From: a virus
Strand: one strand, 5' to 3'
DNA length: 21,994 nucleotides
Virus record (IMG/VR): IMGVR_UViG_3300028573_000063
Location: 1-21,994 of that record
Shown here: one piece after another, positions 3,527 to 18,146 of the stretch
Layout: each line of letters begins with the position of its first letter
How positions within the stretch are numbered: the first letter of the stretch is position 1
Notes under the pieces: model-generated
Told to the model about the DNA's origin: nothing
Database searches by the model: none
What the model saw: only the letters and a program-made list of their open reading frames with translations
Program-made: the position numbers and the translations under genes

Positions 3527-4233
3527 GATATGTATTTATTTATTGGTGGATTATTTGTTGGTGCATTGGTTAATGTTACTGTATTGCCCAATACTGTGTA
3601 ATCACCATTTAAAATTGATAATGCTTGACCTTCCAGTGAAATAAAAGATGGTGTATTTGTAAAAGTATATATTTTATTTATACTATTGACAACACCAGAA
3701 GAAGGATATTCTTCATTCCAAGTTCCAAAAGAACCTGTATGAGCTACTTTTATAGGATTATTGAAAGAACCATCTCCAACTAATGAAGCATCTGTATAAA
3801 CCTTGAACCCAGCAGAACTCCAAGTCATATGGTCTTTTCCTCCTTTTAAATATTCCCAGTCTTTTAAGTCATAGACAGATAGTTTTTCTTTACCGACTAA
3901 GGATTTTAATTTCTCTCTAATTTCCTCTGGTGTAATTATGTTACCGTCTTTTCCTCTTATCGGAGTTGGTATCAAAGGTATTATTATTTCTCTGAGTTCT
4001 TCGTTTGTTGGAATTTTGCCATCAAAATAATGCTTTCCTTTTTTTGGAGTAACCTGTTTCTTAATTTCTTCAATAGGAACAATGGCTAATATTTCTTCGG
4101 CTGTTGGAGTATCTCCCTTATCTCCCTTTAATCTAGCCAAGTCAATGGCTTCAAGCAGATCAAGTATCTTCTCGTCTGGCGTTGAGATTTTTTCGTATAT
4201 TTCTTTTAATTTTTCTTTTTTATCTTTTGGCAT
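3523..4233 (-). CDS. Tail-fibre-like protein
   Basis: About 236 aa from ATG at 4233; a TTG two codons earlier (4239) is the alternative start. The gene overlaps the end of the ATP-grasp gene by 14 bases, and its stop overlaps the next start (ATGA). The N-terminal third is charged and helical (KDKKEKLKEIYEKI). A middle part has short collagen-like pieces (GDKGDTPT, RGKDGN). It continues with the fibre motif YTDASLVGDGSFNNPIKV near residue 150 and ends with a beta module (TNTPSFISLEGQALSILNG, DYTVLGNTVTLTNAP) that I know from the ends of phage fibres and appendage proteins. It probably forms part of a trimeric host-binding fibre. Fibre identity is moderately supported; the exact partner is unknown. 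Confidence 0.6.
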   Translation of the reverse strand: MPKDKKEKLKEIYEKISTPDEKILDLLEAIDLARLKGDKGDTPTAEEILAIVPIEEIKKQVTPKKGKHYFDGKIPTNEELREIIIPLIPTPIRGKDGNIITPEEIREKLKSLVGKEKLSVYDLKDWEYLKGGKDHMTWSSAGFKVYTDASLVGDGSFNNPIKVAHTGSFGTWNEEYPSSGVVNSINKIYTFTNTPSFISLEGQALSILNGDYTVLGNTVTLTNAPTNNPPINKYIS

Positions 4234-5761
4234 AGACAATTTTTTTAAGCTTTTCTCTTATTTCCTTTCTTTTTCCTTCTTCTTTTATAGAGTTTGCCTT
4301 TGATTCTTCTTCCTGTTTCAATTTCAGTTTTTCTGATGTTAAAATATATCCCCACTTTTCAAGGTCATCTTTACACTTATGATAGTTTGTCTTATCAAAA
4401 TCGTCCCTCCAAAAAGACTTTGGAACGATTATTTTTCTAAGTAATTCATCGAGTTTTTTCCCTGCACCTTCAACGGTATTGTCCATTTGAGCCGCAGTAA
4501 GAACATATCCATCAGCATTGGCTATTTCAAGTCTGTCGTTTCTGAACCTTAGCCCATCAGGATAAACATGTTTCCAGTCTTCTTTTGTAAAATCCTTTTT
4601 AAAATTAAGTAAAATACCCTCGGAGTTTGACATTCTAAATGACATCAGATTTTTAATCTCTTCCATTCCTTGTGGTATTCCACCTTCTTCAAATGAAGCA
4701 GTAAGTTTAGCTGAATTTACAAAAGGAAAAGGTTTTGTGTAAAGCCAAGAAACTATGCACATTCTGTCGTCATATTTATAGTTCTTATCCTGTTCCCCAT
4801 CAGCCATAGCTTTTAAAAAGTCATACCATGATGATTTTTGTATCTCTAACTGTGCAGAGGTCGCTGGAACACCCATTCGAGGGGTAAATTCAAGGAAATA
4901 AGCACCTTTTTCAGTGATAATGGTATTTATATCAATATCACCCTTAAAATCAATAGACTTTAAAAGTTCTCTGCACTTATCAAGTGTTTCAGCAAAAATC
5001 TTTGAGTATTTTGCTTTTATATATCTCATCACGGTATATTGTTCACCTGTTGATTCACCCAAGTTTCCTGGAAAAAGGGCTTTGTGTTCCCAGTTTTCTT
5101 CACATATCTCATCACCATCAGAGTCTTTCATAAACTCCTTGCCATTCCAGTATGAACCGCAAGCCATCTCATGCCCTTCTATTTTTCTCTGTAACACAAA
5201 GTCTGGTTTCACTCCTTCAATCCAATGTTTCTCTAGTATTTCAAGTGAGTCTAACAAATCTTCTGAATTAGGCATACGAGCAACGAAGTTTAGACCTTTT
5301 ATCTCATCTATCTTTCCCTGTTGTTTGAGAACCCATTTTCCACCTTTTTCTTTTATAACTTCTCGTATCTTTTCAAATGTATCGCACTCGATCATTTCTG
5401 GGACTAATATACCAGACATTCCCGCTATTTTATTAGCCCAAGTTCTGTCCCATTCTAGTTTATCGGTAAGTTTATCTCCACCTATGACACTCAAACCTTT
5501 TGCTCTAAGTTCCTTAGTTTCGTCTCGGTTTGACTTGTCTTCATATATAATAAGGTCACATTGAGGTGCAAATTCAAGCCTCTCAGCATAGGGAATACGC
5601 TTTATTGTTCCTTTTAGAATGTTAGTGTGTCTTTTGGTTGCTAAATAAACATCGTGTCCTTCGTTTTGAATAACAAGAGCAAGGGAAGGGGCAAGCCACT
5701 CGTCTGTGACGATGAGAATTTTCTTCTTGAGTATTTCTTTGTTTTGTGGTATGATGGGCAT
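4220..5761 (-). CDS. PurD-like ATP-grasp ligase
   Basis: 513 aa, laid out like glycinamide ribonucleotide synthetase (PurD). Residues about 12-43 are a Rossmann-type pre-ATP-grasp strand (KILIVTDEW...GHDVYLATK). The ATP-grasp core runs about 105-320, with the likely ATP-binding Lys146 (KWVLKQQG), the FVLQRKIEGHE segment (188-198) and the metal-site segment GDIDIN...FLEFTPRMG (274-297). Residues about 340-445 resemble the PurD C-terminal domain (GGIPQGME, ANADGYVLTAAQMDNTVEGA). A lysine/glutamate-rich tail (about 465-513) is extra. The usual EFN is EFT at 291-293, so one metal ligand differs. ATP-grasp enzymes join a carboxylate to an amine using ATP. No other purine gene is present, and the gene sits between ejection and fibre genes, so a modifying role on a virion or host molecule is plausible. 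Substrate unknown. Confidence 0.75.
   Translation of the reverse strand: MPIIPQNKEILKKKILIVTDEWLAPSLALVIQNEGHDVYLATKRHTNILKGTIKRIPYAERLEFAPQCDLIIYEDKSNRDETKELRAKGLSVIGGDKLTDKLEWDRTWANKIAGMSGILVPEMIECDTFEKIREVIKEKGGKWVLKQQGKIDEIKGLNFVARMPNSEDLLDSLEILEKHWIEGVKPDFVLQRKIEGHEMACGSYWNGKEFMKDSDGDEICEENWEHKALFPGNLGESTGEQYTVMRYIKAKYSKIFAETLDKCRELLKSIDFKGDIDINTIITEKGAYFLEFTPRMGVPATSAQLEIQKSSWYDFLKAMADGEQDKNYKYDDRMCIVSWLYTKPFPFVNSAKLTASFEEGGIPQGMEEIKNLMSFRMSNSEGILLNFKKDFTKEDWKHVYPDGLRFRNDRLEIANADGYVLTAAQMDNTVEGAGKKLDELLRKIIVPKSFWRDDFDKTNYHKCKDDLEKWGYILTSEKLKLKQEEESKANSIKEEGKRKEIREKLKKIVYAKR
5727..5755 (+). promoter_or_regulatory. Possible plus-strand sigma70 promoter with extended -10
   Basis: TTGAGT at 5727-5732, a 17-base spacer, then TATGAT at 5750-5755 preceded by TGG (an extended -10). 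The ATG of a 29-aa plus-strand reading frame begins at 5762, about where transcription would start, so the message would be leaderless. The element lies inside the first codons of the divergent ATP-grasp gene, and a chance match in AT-rich coding DNA cannot be excluded. Confidence 0.4.
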
Positions 5762-14595: not shown

Positions 14596-14766
14596 CTAAT
14601 AACCCATTGTTTTACGAACTGAATTCTGAACTTTTGACATTGATGGTTTTGACTTCGTTAATTTTTTGTCCATTTTTGTCATTAGCTTTCCCTTCATTTT
14701 AGCCATACCACCAATTTTTGTTGGTTGAATAGGTTTCAATTTTGTTTGCTGTTGCTGTTGTACCAT
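14596..14766 (-). CDS. Small basic protein with C-terminal RKTMGY tail (copy 2)
   Basis: 56 aa from the ATG at 14766, four bases after the stop of the preceding paralogue; a longer in-frame extension to 14841 overlaps that gene and is rejected. It is very basic (KMKGKLMTKMDKKLTKSK) after a Gln run (MVQQQQQ). Its final 16 residues PSMSKVQNSVRKTMGY match 11 of 16 positions of the neighbour's PSIGKIKNSLRKTMGY, so the two are tandem paralogues. The stop is TAG, unlike the TAA used by most genes here. A basic protein of this size in the head region could bind DNA inside the capsid, with the tail as a docking peptide. No family recognised; function inferred. Confidence 0.65.
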   Translation of the reverse strand: MVQQQQQTKLKPIQPTKIGGMAKMKGKLMTKMDKKLTKSKPSMSKVQNSVRKTMGY

Positions 14767-14770
14767 ATTT

Positions 14771-15001
14771 TTATTTGTAACCCATTGTTTTTCGCAATGA
14801 ATTTTTAATCTTGCCAATAGATGGCATTTTAGAACTTCCACTGTATGGAGTCCCTGATGGTTTCTTAACTTTCACATCCTTTTTTCCACCCTTTTGAGCA
14901 GTCATCTTTCTTGAGTTTTGAGTTTCAGCTAAAGGTGAATTGACTTTACCCATCTGGGTTGATTTATTTTCTTTAATTATGTTGTGTCTTTTAATAGCCA
15001 T
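14771..15001 (-). CDS. Small basic protein with C-terminal RKTMGYK tail (copy 1)
   Basis: 76 aa, strongly basic, with low-complexity lysine-rich middle (MTAQKGGKKDVKVKKPSGTP) and C-terminus KMPSIGKIKNSLRKTMGYK. It overlaps the end of the preceding 141-aa gene by 11 bases and is followed by its shorter paralogue. The DNA around both 3' ends is also similar (taacccattgttt on the plus strand at 14599 and 14778), supporting duplication. The protein just upstream also ends RKQLYGY, so three consecutive gene products share a related terminus. Probable minor capsid or DNA-associated protein; no domain recognised. Confidence 0.65.
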   Translation of the reverse strand: MAIKRHNIIKENKSTQMGKVNSPLAETQNSRKMTAQKGGKKDVKVKKPSGTPYSGSSKMPSIGKIKNSLRKTMGYK

Positions 15002-15416
15002 ATAATTGTTTTCTGTGGTCTAGTAACTGTTGTTTGAACTTAGGCGAGCAATACGACCATTCTAATGCTCCCAAAAGTCCGTAATCGCGTGTAAAATTCT
15101 TTTTTCCTGCATTTTCTGATGGGTCTGCAAGAAAAAGTTTTTCCTTCTGAAAGTCAGATTTCATTCTAACATTCACATTCTTATCCAATAATTTCTTTTT
15201 AGTTTCAAAATATTCTTCTTGGATTCTCAATAGGTCTTCAGCCTGTCCTGCTGGAACTTTAACTGTTCCCACATAAAGCTTTCCGTTGATTCTAATTCCT
15301 CCGTCTGTCATCTGTCGATCAATATTGATAGTGACCATTTCTTCCGTAGGTTCTTTGGCAAGTTTAACTTCTGGTGTAGGGTTTACCGCCTTGATTTCTT
15401 CTGGTTGTTTTTTCAT
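14991..15416 (-). CDS. Conserved-looking virion-region protein of unknown function (141 aa)
   Basis: 141 aa. A charged, proline-containing N-terminus (about 1-28) is followed by a beta section (VTINIDRQMTDGGIRINGKL, YVGTVKVPAG), a helix (QAEDLLRIQEEYFETKKKLL) and a basic C-terminal region (FTRDYGLLGALEWSYCSPKF ... LLDHRKQLYGY). No family is recognised. The compact beta-plus-helix region looks folded, and the protein sits in the head module between the coiled-coil gene and the basic paralogues. The terminal RKQLYGY resembles the RKTMGY tails encoded next, suggesting a common binding partner such as the capsid. It starts five bases after the preceding stop and overlaps the next gene by 11 bases, so translation is probably coupled. 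Confidence 0.55.
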   Translation of the reverse strand: MKKQPEEIKAVNPTPEVKLAKEPTEEMVTINIDRQMTDGGIRINGKLYVGTVKVPAGQAEDLLRIQEEYFETKKKLLDKNVNVRMKSDFQKEKLFLADPSENAGKKNFTRDYGLLGALEWSYCSPKFKQQLLDHRKQLYGY

Positions 15417-15421
15417 ATCAG

Positions 15422-15751
15422 TTATTTGGTTAGTTTCTTGCTAAGTCTTTCGGCATCTTTCATGGTTTGACCTGCTTTTGCTTTCGTATCCATTTCTGCC
15501 TTAAGAGCATCGTCAAGCTTCTTTACCTCTGCTGTTCTTCTTTCTGAAGCATCAACTAGAAGCTGTTTCTCTCCGATTTCTCTTTCCTGAACTGAAATAA
15601 ACTGCTTATGAATAACTTGGTCTATCAATTTTACCTGTTTTACAACTTCTTCTTCTGAAAGCGTATCGTTATCAGAATGAATTGTTGCCGTAAAGCTAAT
15701 ATTTTCCGAACCAAACTGTCTTAACGCTGAGAACTTGAATTCATTTTTCAT
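15422..15751 (-). CDS. Coiled-coil protein of unknown function (109 aa)
   Basis: 109 aa. A short beta stretch (FKFSALRQFGSENISFTATI) is followed by a long charged helix from about residue 33 (EEEVVKQVKLIDQVIHKQFI ... SERRTAEVKKLDDALKAEMD) with heptad-like spacing, ending KDAERLSKKLTK. It is the first gene after the capsid gene and its hairpin. No family is recognised. Candidates by position are a minor head protein or assembly factor. The start is preceded by a small hairpin and an AT-rich stretch, not a ribosome-binding motif. Confidence 0.5.
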   Translation of the reverse strand: MKNEFKFSALRQFGSENISFTATIHSDNDTLSEEEVVKQVKLIDQVIHKQFISVQEREIGEKQLLVDASERRTAEVKKLDDALKAEMDTKAKAGQTMKDAERLSKKLTK

Positions 15752-15856: not shown

Positions 15857-16822
15857 TTAAGCTGTCGTTCCCGTAAGTGTAGCTGTGATTTCGTTTCTGA
15901 CGATTCTGTTGTTGTCCAAAATTGCAGAAGCTCCTTCCCATTTCCAACCTACTGTTGAACGCTGTTCCAATGGGTCTGAAGTATCCTGTACTCCACCTGT
16001 GTGGATATAGGTTTTCAAACCTCCTGAGAACTCTGATACCGCATATGCACCTTTACCGTAGCAAAGAGCGCCATATACGTTCACACCTGCTGAACCTGCA
16101 CCAACATAAACTGGTGACATGGTTGTAGATATGATTCTAGCACCCATCCAATAACCTAATTCACCAGTGAACAAATCACCTCTCTTATCATTTGATGGAG
16201 TTGGTGATGAGTAATTGACTGCTGAAATAAAGTTCGTGTCGAGTCTCAAATCATAGATACAATCAGGGTGCGTAACGAGAGCGTAGGCTGAACCGATGAT
16301 TGGCATAGGTTCAAACTTCTCTACGTTATTTCTTTCCAAAAATCTTACATCTCTTGTAACAAGAGTTGTAGTAAGTTTCTGGGAAACTGTTGCTCGAGTT
16401 GTGACAGTACCATCACCATAGATAACGTTTGTTCCTGCTGCAACTACGTTCATAATTGTAGTGTCGATGGTTTCTGATGATTGGATACCCAAAACATCTG
16501 AAGCATCTTTAATCAATGAACGGTCATAGAGGAATTCTGCTACATCAGTGATGTAAGTAAAATCTCCGTATTGTGATAAGACTGCTGTGACTGAATTCAT
16601 TGTCATATTTGAACCTGATGGGCTTACTCCTTCATTCAAAGGTGTAAGAGCAAGTGCAAGTCTGTTAAATCCTCTAAAGATGACAGTTTTGGAATTTGAG
16701 CCTTTTGTAACAGGAGAAACTTTCGCTGTTTTGTACCAGAGAAGTTTCATCTTCAAAATGTCAATGAGTTCCTTTGTGACAATCTTCTGTCCAACGTCTA
16801 TCGCTGAAAAAATTGTTGACAT
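15857..16822 (-). CDS. Major capsid protein, N4-gp56 family
   Basis: 321 aa. The sequence shows features of the N4-gp56 family of HK97-fold capsid proteins: N-terminal helix with KMKLLWYKTAK, the LTPLNEGVSPSGSNMTMNSV segment, QYGDFTYITDVAEFLYDRSL, the VTHPDCIYDLRLD stretch typical of the P-domain, and near the C-terminus GGVQDTSDPLEQRSTVGWKW, a family hallmark. It assembles the icosahedral shell. It follows the scaffold-like and decoration-like genes. The leader (16823-16863) is extremely AT-rich with repeated ATTATTA and no Shine-Dalgarno motif, notable for what should be the most heavily translated gene. A hairpin lies after the stop. Confidence 0.9.
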   Translation of the reverse strand: MSTIFSAIDVGQKIVTKELIDILKMKLLWYKTAKVSPVTKGSNSKTVIFRGFNRLALALTPLNEGVSPSGSNMTMNSVTAVLSQYGDFTYITDVAEFLYDRSLIKDASDVLGIQSSETIDTTIMNVVAAGTNVIYGDGTVTTRATVSQKLTTTLVTRDVRFLERNNVEKFEPMPIIGSAYALVTHPDCIYDLRLDTNFISAVNYSSPTPSNDKRGDLFTGELGYWMGARIISTTMSPVYVGAGSAGVNVYGALCYGKGAYAVSEFSGGLKTYIHTGGVQDTSDPLEQRSTVGWKWEGASAILDNNRIVRNEITATLTGTTA

Positions 16823-17408: not shown

Positions 17409-18146
17409 TTAACCTCTTAAAGAGTCTAATTTTGTATATAGGTCATCTTTTGATAGGTCATCTAAGTTGACTTCTCCATTTCTATTAGGAAGGGAAGGAG
17501 ACGACTCAGTCGGTTTAACTTTATTCATTTGAAGGTCAATTGCTATTTCTCCGATCAGTGATTTTAATGACTGATTGGGGTTTCGCATAAAAGTCTTTTT
17601 CAAATCATTTTTATAATCTGAAAGTCCTTCTATCTTATCGTATTTGCTAAATTCTGTTTCAAATTTAACTTCATTATTTTTCTGTTCTATAGGGGCTAGT
17701 ATAGATGATGTTTCACCTTTAATAACTTCATAGAACTTTTCCAATAACTTACGAGAAGGTTGGTCTTCAACTGCATTTAGAAATTCCTTAACGTCTTTGA
17801 ATTTAGGAGAGTTATTTCCTTCGTCATTTTCATCGGGGATAATTTTCTCTTCCTTTGGAGTTTCCTCTTTAGGTTTATCCGCAAATTCTTTGACTTTCTC
17901 TGCCAAATCTCTAATACGTTTTTGAGCGCGAGGGCTAAGTTTAGATATTTCTTCCTCACTCAATTCCCCAGCCTCTACATCGACTTTAGATTTAGAAGTG
18001 TCAATGTCTTTATCTTCTTCAGGTTTTTGGTCGGACGCCACCTTAGATTCCTTTTCTAATGGTTCTGATTCATCGACAGTCTCAAGAGTTTTTCTTAATT
18101 CTGCATATAAATCTTCTGAACCTACGTCTTTGTTATCTTTATCCAT
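17409..18146 (-). CDS. Scaffold-like protein
   Basis: 245 aa, highly charged and rich in Glu, Lys, Asp and Ser, with predicted disorder and helices (YAELRKTLETVDESEPLEKE, GELSEEEISKLSPRAQKRIR, EIAIDLQMNKVKPTE). This composition and the place between portal and capsid genes match capsid scaffolding proteins, which direct shell assembly and leave before DNA packaging. The two ends carry similar short motifs, EDLYAELRKTL near residue 11 and DDLYTKLDSLRG at the C-terminus; basic C-terminal helices of scaffolds often bind the capsid protein. A consensus promoter ends three bases before its ATG. No catalytic protease motif is seen. Confidence 0.65.
   Translation of the reverse strand: MDKDNKDVGSEDLYAELRKTLETVDESEPLEKESKVASDQKPEEDKDIDTSKSKVDVEAGELSEEEISKLSPRAQKRIRDLAEKVKEFADKPKEETPKEEKIIPDENDEGNNSPKFKDVKEFLNAVEDQPSRKLLEKFYEVIKGETSSILAPIEQKNNEVKFETEFSKYDKIEGLSDYKNDLKKTFMRNPNQSLKSLIGEIAIDLQMNKVKPTESSPSLPNRNGEVNLDDLSKDDLYTKLDSLRG

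Follow-up and report, generated by a model that had tools for sequence, protein, structure and literature searches.

A candidate C-terminal docking tag on small basic head-region proteins in a clade of phages probably associated with Patescibacteria

Encapsulin cargo-loading peptides and the encapsulation peptides of microcompartments act as a short terminal address on unrelated cargo, and encapsulin shells are of the HK97 type. In phage T4, the internal head proteins IPI, IPII and IPIII have as their sole common part a short terminal capsid targeting sequence (CTS; PMC3012670, PMC9026906). The T4 CTS is N-terminal, about 10 residues long and cut off by gp21 after L/I-X-E. The virus fragment IMGVR_UViG_3300028573_000063, analyzed here over its whole length of 21,994 bases (the window), encodes two small basic proteins with a related C-terminal tail that recurs in a clade of related phages. 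Like the T4 CTS, this tail is a short terminal peptide common to otherwise divergent small proteins. Unlike it, the tail is C-terminal in 25 of 25 cases, longer and predicted to be helical, and targeting to the head would follow by analogy. Inspection of the two window tails revealed no L/I-X-E site, and no protease family was recognized among 10 head-region proteins scanned against Pfam and PHROGs. A sequence-only reading of this DNA had likened the tail to encapsulin cargo peptides. The likeness is a conceptual one, the clade tail being a C-terminal peptide with a putative address role; the T4 CTS is the nearer precedent. Encapsulin cargo consists of enzymes, with the cargo gene adjoining the shell gene, whereas the clade carriers are small basic phage proteins encoded in a phage head operon, their neighbor being the phage major capsid gene within a head gene cluster. 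By membership the tail is neither a T4 CTS nor an encapsulin peptide. Searches of the open-licence literature brought up no description of a comparable tag at the C-terminus.

The minus strand of the window carries, in order, terminase, a 278-aa protein, portal, a 98-aa protein, a presumed scaffold, a 173-aa protein and the major capsid protein, followed by 109-aa and 141-aa proteins, the basic 76-aa and 56-aa proteins, a 135-aa protein and tail genes; gene names other than that of the capsid were assigned by eye from sequence and order. The major capsid protein (15857..16822, minus strand) matched phrog_1357 (E 1e-49) and Pfam Phage_capsid_4 above the cut-off. It is 28% identical to a relative in Pseudoalteromonas phage vB_Pun_Y3 that is annotated as N4-gp56, so the N4-gp56 label given to it earlier is a fair one. 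An acidic protein of 245 aa, encoded upstream of the capsid (17409..18146, minus strand), is a presumed scaffold by position and composition only, and the 109-aa protein (15422..15751, minus strand), a neighbor of the tagged genes, is conserved in synteny; neither had a significant match in Pfam or PHROGs. All three are possible docking partners. At 4220-5761, the tail region encodes a 513-aa protein that resembles, by eye, an ATP-grasp enzyme, an odd member of a structural cassette. One Patescibacteria MAG has a capsid relative with 76% identity on a contig of 3 kb, and 3 of 379 sampled Patescibacteria genomes had any capsid match, two of them remote; on this sequence evidence Patescibacteria are the probable host of the clade.

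The coordinates and letters given for this region by the sequence-only reading were correct. The first tailed protein is a 56-aa basic protein with a glutamine-rich start (MVQQQQQTKLKP...; 14596..14766, minus strand), for which 16 other distinct phages have a Q-rich-start orthologue at the corresponding place. By analogy with these relatives its likely start is the ATG at 14766 (MVQQQQQTK...), the mechanically called GTG at 14841 being less likely. Its open reading frame, with the stop at 14596, ends NSVRKTMGY, and its tail core, MSKVQNSVRKTMGY, occupies 14599..14640 (minus strand). The second is a 76-aa basic protein (14771..15001, minus strand) ending NSLRKTMGYK, with the tail core IGKIKNSLRKTMGY at 14777..14818 (minus strand), followed by one lysine and the stop. 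Neither protein had a significant family match in Pfam or PHROGs. As had been noted before, the two tails are related, with 11 of 16 residues identical at a one-residue offset, and none of 200,000 residue shuffles gave an equally good match.

Capsid searches defined a clade of 25 records including the window, leaving out three remote matches with 26-30% identity (L118-L120). In four records (L004, L014, L021, L102) the contig ends before the expected place of the tail gene, leaving 21 of 25 assessable, and these represent 17 distinct phages once near-identical copies (L003; L011-L013) are removed. Recurrence in related phages had been proposed as a check, and at least one tail protein was present in 17/17 distinct phages and 21/21 assessable records, so an objection from non-recurrence falls away. 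The tail genes follow the 141-aa gene, with an HNH-like gene inserted between them in L015. The core of the tail can be written [VI]xxS[VIL][RK]K[TS]MG[YKH], followed by up to two more residues; together with a few residues preceding this pattern the conserved core spans about 14 residues. Each of the 17 phages has [TSA]-M-G in at least one tail, while second copies may drift (KAKGY, KSKGY, HSKGR). Two clear tagged proteins were found in 7/17 phages (the window, L002, L005, L009, L010, L016 and L019) and one in the other 10, among them L115, which has an additional marginal protein of 58 aa ending INAAKGY (13.6 bits). In leave-one-out scoring with a 14-position profile, the 25 tails reached 11-39 bits and 3,746 other ORF ends of the clade at most 2.5, a separation that partly reflects selection because the 25 tails were chosen by regular expression, although the gap in scores is itself empty. 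Distant capsid relatives (named, fecal and other Patescibacteria-binned records) lack any tagged protein downstream of their capsid genes. HNH-like endonuclease genes, recognized by eye, surround the tagged gene in the head region of some clade members, at about 1.8-2.2 kb past the capsid gene in L010 and at about 0.9-1.4 and 1.7-2.2 kb past it in L015.

The pattern is largely specific to this clade at gene ends. A DNA search for xKTMGY-stop in IMG/VR viral contigs recovered 62, 22 and 27 stretches for the respective stop codons (111 places), of which nine lie on ORFs of at least 29 aa. Eight of the nine are clade contigs, and the one unrelated ORF encodes a 507-aa protein ending SHKTMGY (L027); a 26-aa end in L025 is of the same kind. 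A stop-free pattern matched at least 119 stretches and, among the 80 listed, all gene-end matches of plausible length were clade members. Within 23 clade records, K-x-M-G-Y occurred 13 times, each time coinciding with a tail by coordinates, and the reversed pattern did not occur. No match to the tail was found in the phage collection. In 379 Patescibacteria genomes, xKTMGY followed by TAA or TAG occurred zero times, and mimicry of a host protein was rejected as far as this search extends.

Most carriers are Q-start proteins, predicted to be disordered, with a lysine-rich spacer of any length; at 33 aa, the L017 carrier is scarcely more than a Q-start and a tail. Other bodies match families found in phages outside the clade, and in three of these carriers the tail lies outside the matched module. 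The 58-aa carrier of L009 matches phrog_2423 at residues 1-46 (E 1.8e-21; profile 1-46 of 52); it also has a weak match (E 0.0014) to the N-terminal part of a family of head maturation proteases. The second carrier of L016 (79 aa) matches phrog_28725 at residues 1-68 (E 6.5e-12) and also the full DUF3008 profile (1-57 of 57) with 13.5 bits, below the Pfam cut-off of 24. The 106-aa carrier of L115 matches phrog_16160 at residues 50-91 (E 6.7e-8). Carriers in L005 and L002 have weak matches to a virion structural family (E 0.0064) and to DUF6496, respectively. L010-L012 also encode a tagged 29-aa protein (KSDKQRKFF...KKTMGY), whose gene lies 5.5 kb away from that of the capsid and immediately upstream of the presumed terminase genes.

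Bodies of several tagged proteins match phrog_2423/DUF6496, DUF3008 and DUF6582-like proteins, the Pfam families only weakly, but the ends of their relatives in other phages lack the tail of the clade carriers. The module of Enterobacter phage phiEap-2 ends ...SKAGKKRKSK where the L009 protein runs on into PTKGMVEKSLRATMGY. The tail was absent from the same modules outside the clade at all 80 loci inspected, the best 80 of at least 346 IMG/VR relatives. Coverage of 80% of the L009 protein was reached in none of 348 phage records. The corresponding count for the L016 module (at least 80%) was 7 of 111 records, and no tail was seen on reading three records with relatives of this module. One relative of the L016 module, ORF93 of cyanophage S-SCSM1, is annotated as a virion protein; the S-SCSM1 study reports 45 virion proteins by mass spectrometry (PMC9602691), of which ORF93 may be one. 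In a P22-like phage from spring water, a phrog_2423-like gene comes directly after the gene for the P22 coat protein (L309:1501-1683), which hints at a head role for this family and, the module gene adjoining a coat gene there, extends the module's linkage to the head beyond the clade. Searches of the open-licence literature for the DUF names of the tag bodies and for Patescibacteria phages with such proteins gave nothing useful (PMC13059738 included).

Other recurring ends were observed on the phrog_2423-like module in other phages, namely [AP]TYE, ARPQxFxGxF and GGGAATKGLxFYEIE (L318, L338, L358; L320, L327; L389, L390). Each is found on one protein per contig fragment, so that their sharing by several proteins is unsupported, and so is a general rule by which every phage lineage tags several proteins. 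The latter two ends gave nothing credible against phage records. Lysine-rich small phage proteins outside the clade that end in -PMGY or -KKGY (L332:2543-2659, L379:2669-2797, L311:1501-1647, L315:1501-1644) may represent chance or a looser G-Y end.

An AlphaFold model of the 56-aa protein, built with 18 sequences, contains a single helix at residues 43-54, with block pLDDT values of 94 and 91 against 57-73 for the remainder, making the tail the only confident element. The helical hydrophobic moment of the tails averaged 0.55, compared with 0.31 for shuffled sequences (24/24 above) and 0.23 at the strand angle, and the tail is thus predicted to be an amphipathic helix. Residues S(-8), K(-5) and G(-2) are strictly conserved. 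Synonymous codons of the tail vary freely, which places the constraint at the protein level; a signal in RNA or DNA was rejected on account of these codon differences and of the motif's in-frame position at the end of the gene. Within the Q-start family, mean pairwise identity was 47% in the tail against 37% in the bodies, a value that fell to 27% when the bodies were shuffled, and the tail exceeded the body in 110 of 136 pairs. This contrast is real but modest, because Q-start bodies share composition and an N-terminal motif. Given that the tail is cationic, part of its conservation could serve binding to nucleic acid or membrane.

The sequence-only reading had proposed that the tail is a docking or encapsidation tag. 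What stands of this proposal is a shared, recurring, constrained peptide with a predicted helix that lies outside the modules of different proteins; the inclusion of the 141-aa protein is not supported. Recurrence across the clade, position outside modules, constraint at the protein level and the predicted amphipathic helix all fit such a tag, and we hold with moderate confidence that a transferable C-terminal docking tag is the best reading, its partner and virion location being what we infer. The tail would fold as an amphipathic helix with a stripe of V/I(-11), V/L/I(-7) and M(-3), small S(-8) and T(-4) beside the stripe, and a G-Y cap. The binding site of this helix might be a groove on one conserved protein of head assembly, be it the capsid, scaffold, portal or 141-aa protein, and docking there would carry lysine-rich cargo compatible with DNA to the inside or the surface of the head, much as may be envisaged from the T4 internal proteins that share only the capsid targeting sequence.

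In the main rival reading the tail is a helix for self-association or co-assembly: it would link tagged basic proteins to one another, or to DNA, in a condensate or a layer of the core, and would be no address for another protein. That the tail is amphipathic, that it is the one part of a disordered basic protein modeled with confidence, and that 7 of the 17 phages have two clear tagged proteins, would suit this explanation. Heterotypic pairing is not general, however, as the other 10 phages have one clear tagged protein (L115 with its marginal one), and the strict S(-8), K(-5) and G(-2) resemble docking into a fixed surface; we consider self-association unlikely, though the strongest of the alternatives.

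Somewhat less probable still is that the tail serves recognition outside head assembly, for instance by a host factor, a protease or a membrane. Degrons typically sit at the C-terminus, as do amphipathic cationic helices that act on membranes, but nearly all tagged genes lie in the head region, with one in the packaging region, and the exact pattern with TAA or TAG stops was absent from the 379 Patescibacteria genomes, with no mimicry of host proteins seen. Simple paralogy, in which an ancestral basic protein was duplicated and its bodies drifted around a conserved end that is no special tag, appears improbable. The window copies are in tandem and the Q-rich start is common to many carriers, as paralogy would have it, yet in several bodies the match to families of unrelated phages stops before the tail, and one carrier is encoded in the terminase region.

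The sequence-only reading had placed an RK-x-x-G-Y tail on three consecutive proteins, the third being the conserved 141-aa head-region protein (14991..15416, minus strand), which ends HRKQLYGY. This end is RK-x-x-x-G-Y, with three residues rather than two between RK and GY; it aligns to the basic tails only with a gap (P=0.09, 9% of shuffles scoring as high), and the tail profile gave at best 1.2 bits on 141-aa orthologues against 11-39 for true tails. On these grounds we conclude that the tail is common to two window proteins, not three; the earlier observation is right for those two and understated for them. The YGY end is part of the protein's own conserved C-terminus, with R135 and G140 invariant in an alignment of 16 sequences and an AlphaFold model that predicts a folded C-terminal region with a helix at residues 125-139. 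A single tail on all three proteins is very improbable: both kinds of end are a helix followed by G-Y, but to the gap and the low score is added L113, whose 141-aa orthologue ends LYNY while its tagged basic protein retains SMGYNS. A fold search with the 141-aa model gave no match at E below 0.001, and searches of phage records and genome contigs with the protein or its profile gave nothing useful. The 3' end of the 141-aa gene and the start of the 76-aa gene have 11 nt in common (14991-15001), with equally long overlaps in L006 and L016, which hints at coupled translation.

Returning to the docking tag, we tentatively propose, with less confidence than in the tag itself, that a clade-specific C-terminal helical tag recruits interchangeable small basic modules from the wider phage gene pool into the heads of Patescibacteria-associated podovirus-like phages, as a counterpart of the T4 CTS with a separate origin. 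If true, addressing of cargo by terminal peptides would have arisen more than once in tailed phages. The tagged bodies also suggest that small basic families, widespread in phages and without an assigned function, serve as head or virion cargo, and the tail would offer a short peptide, open to testing, with which to load the capsid of an uncultured phage with cargo. The question of why such small modules adjoin capsid and terminase genes would then become approachable by pull-down.
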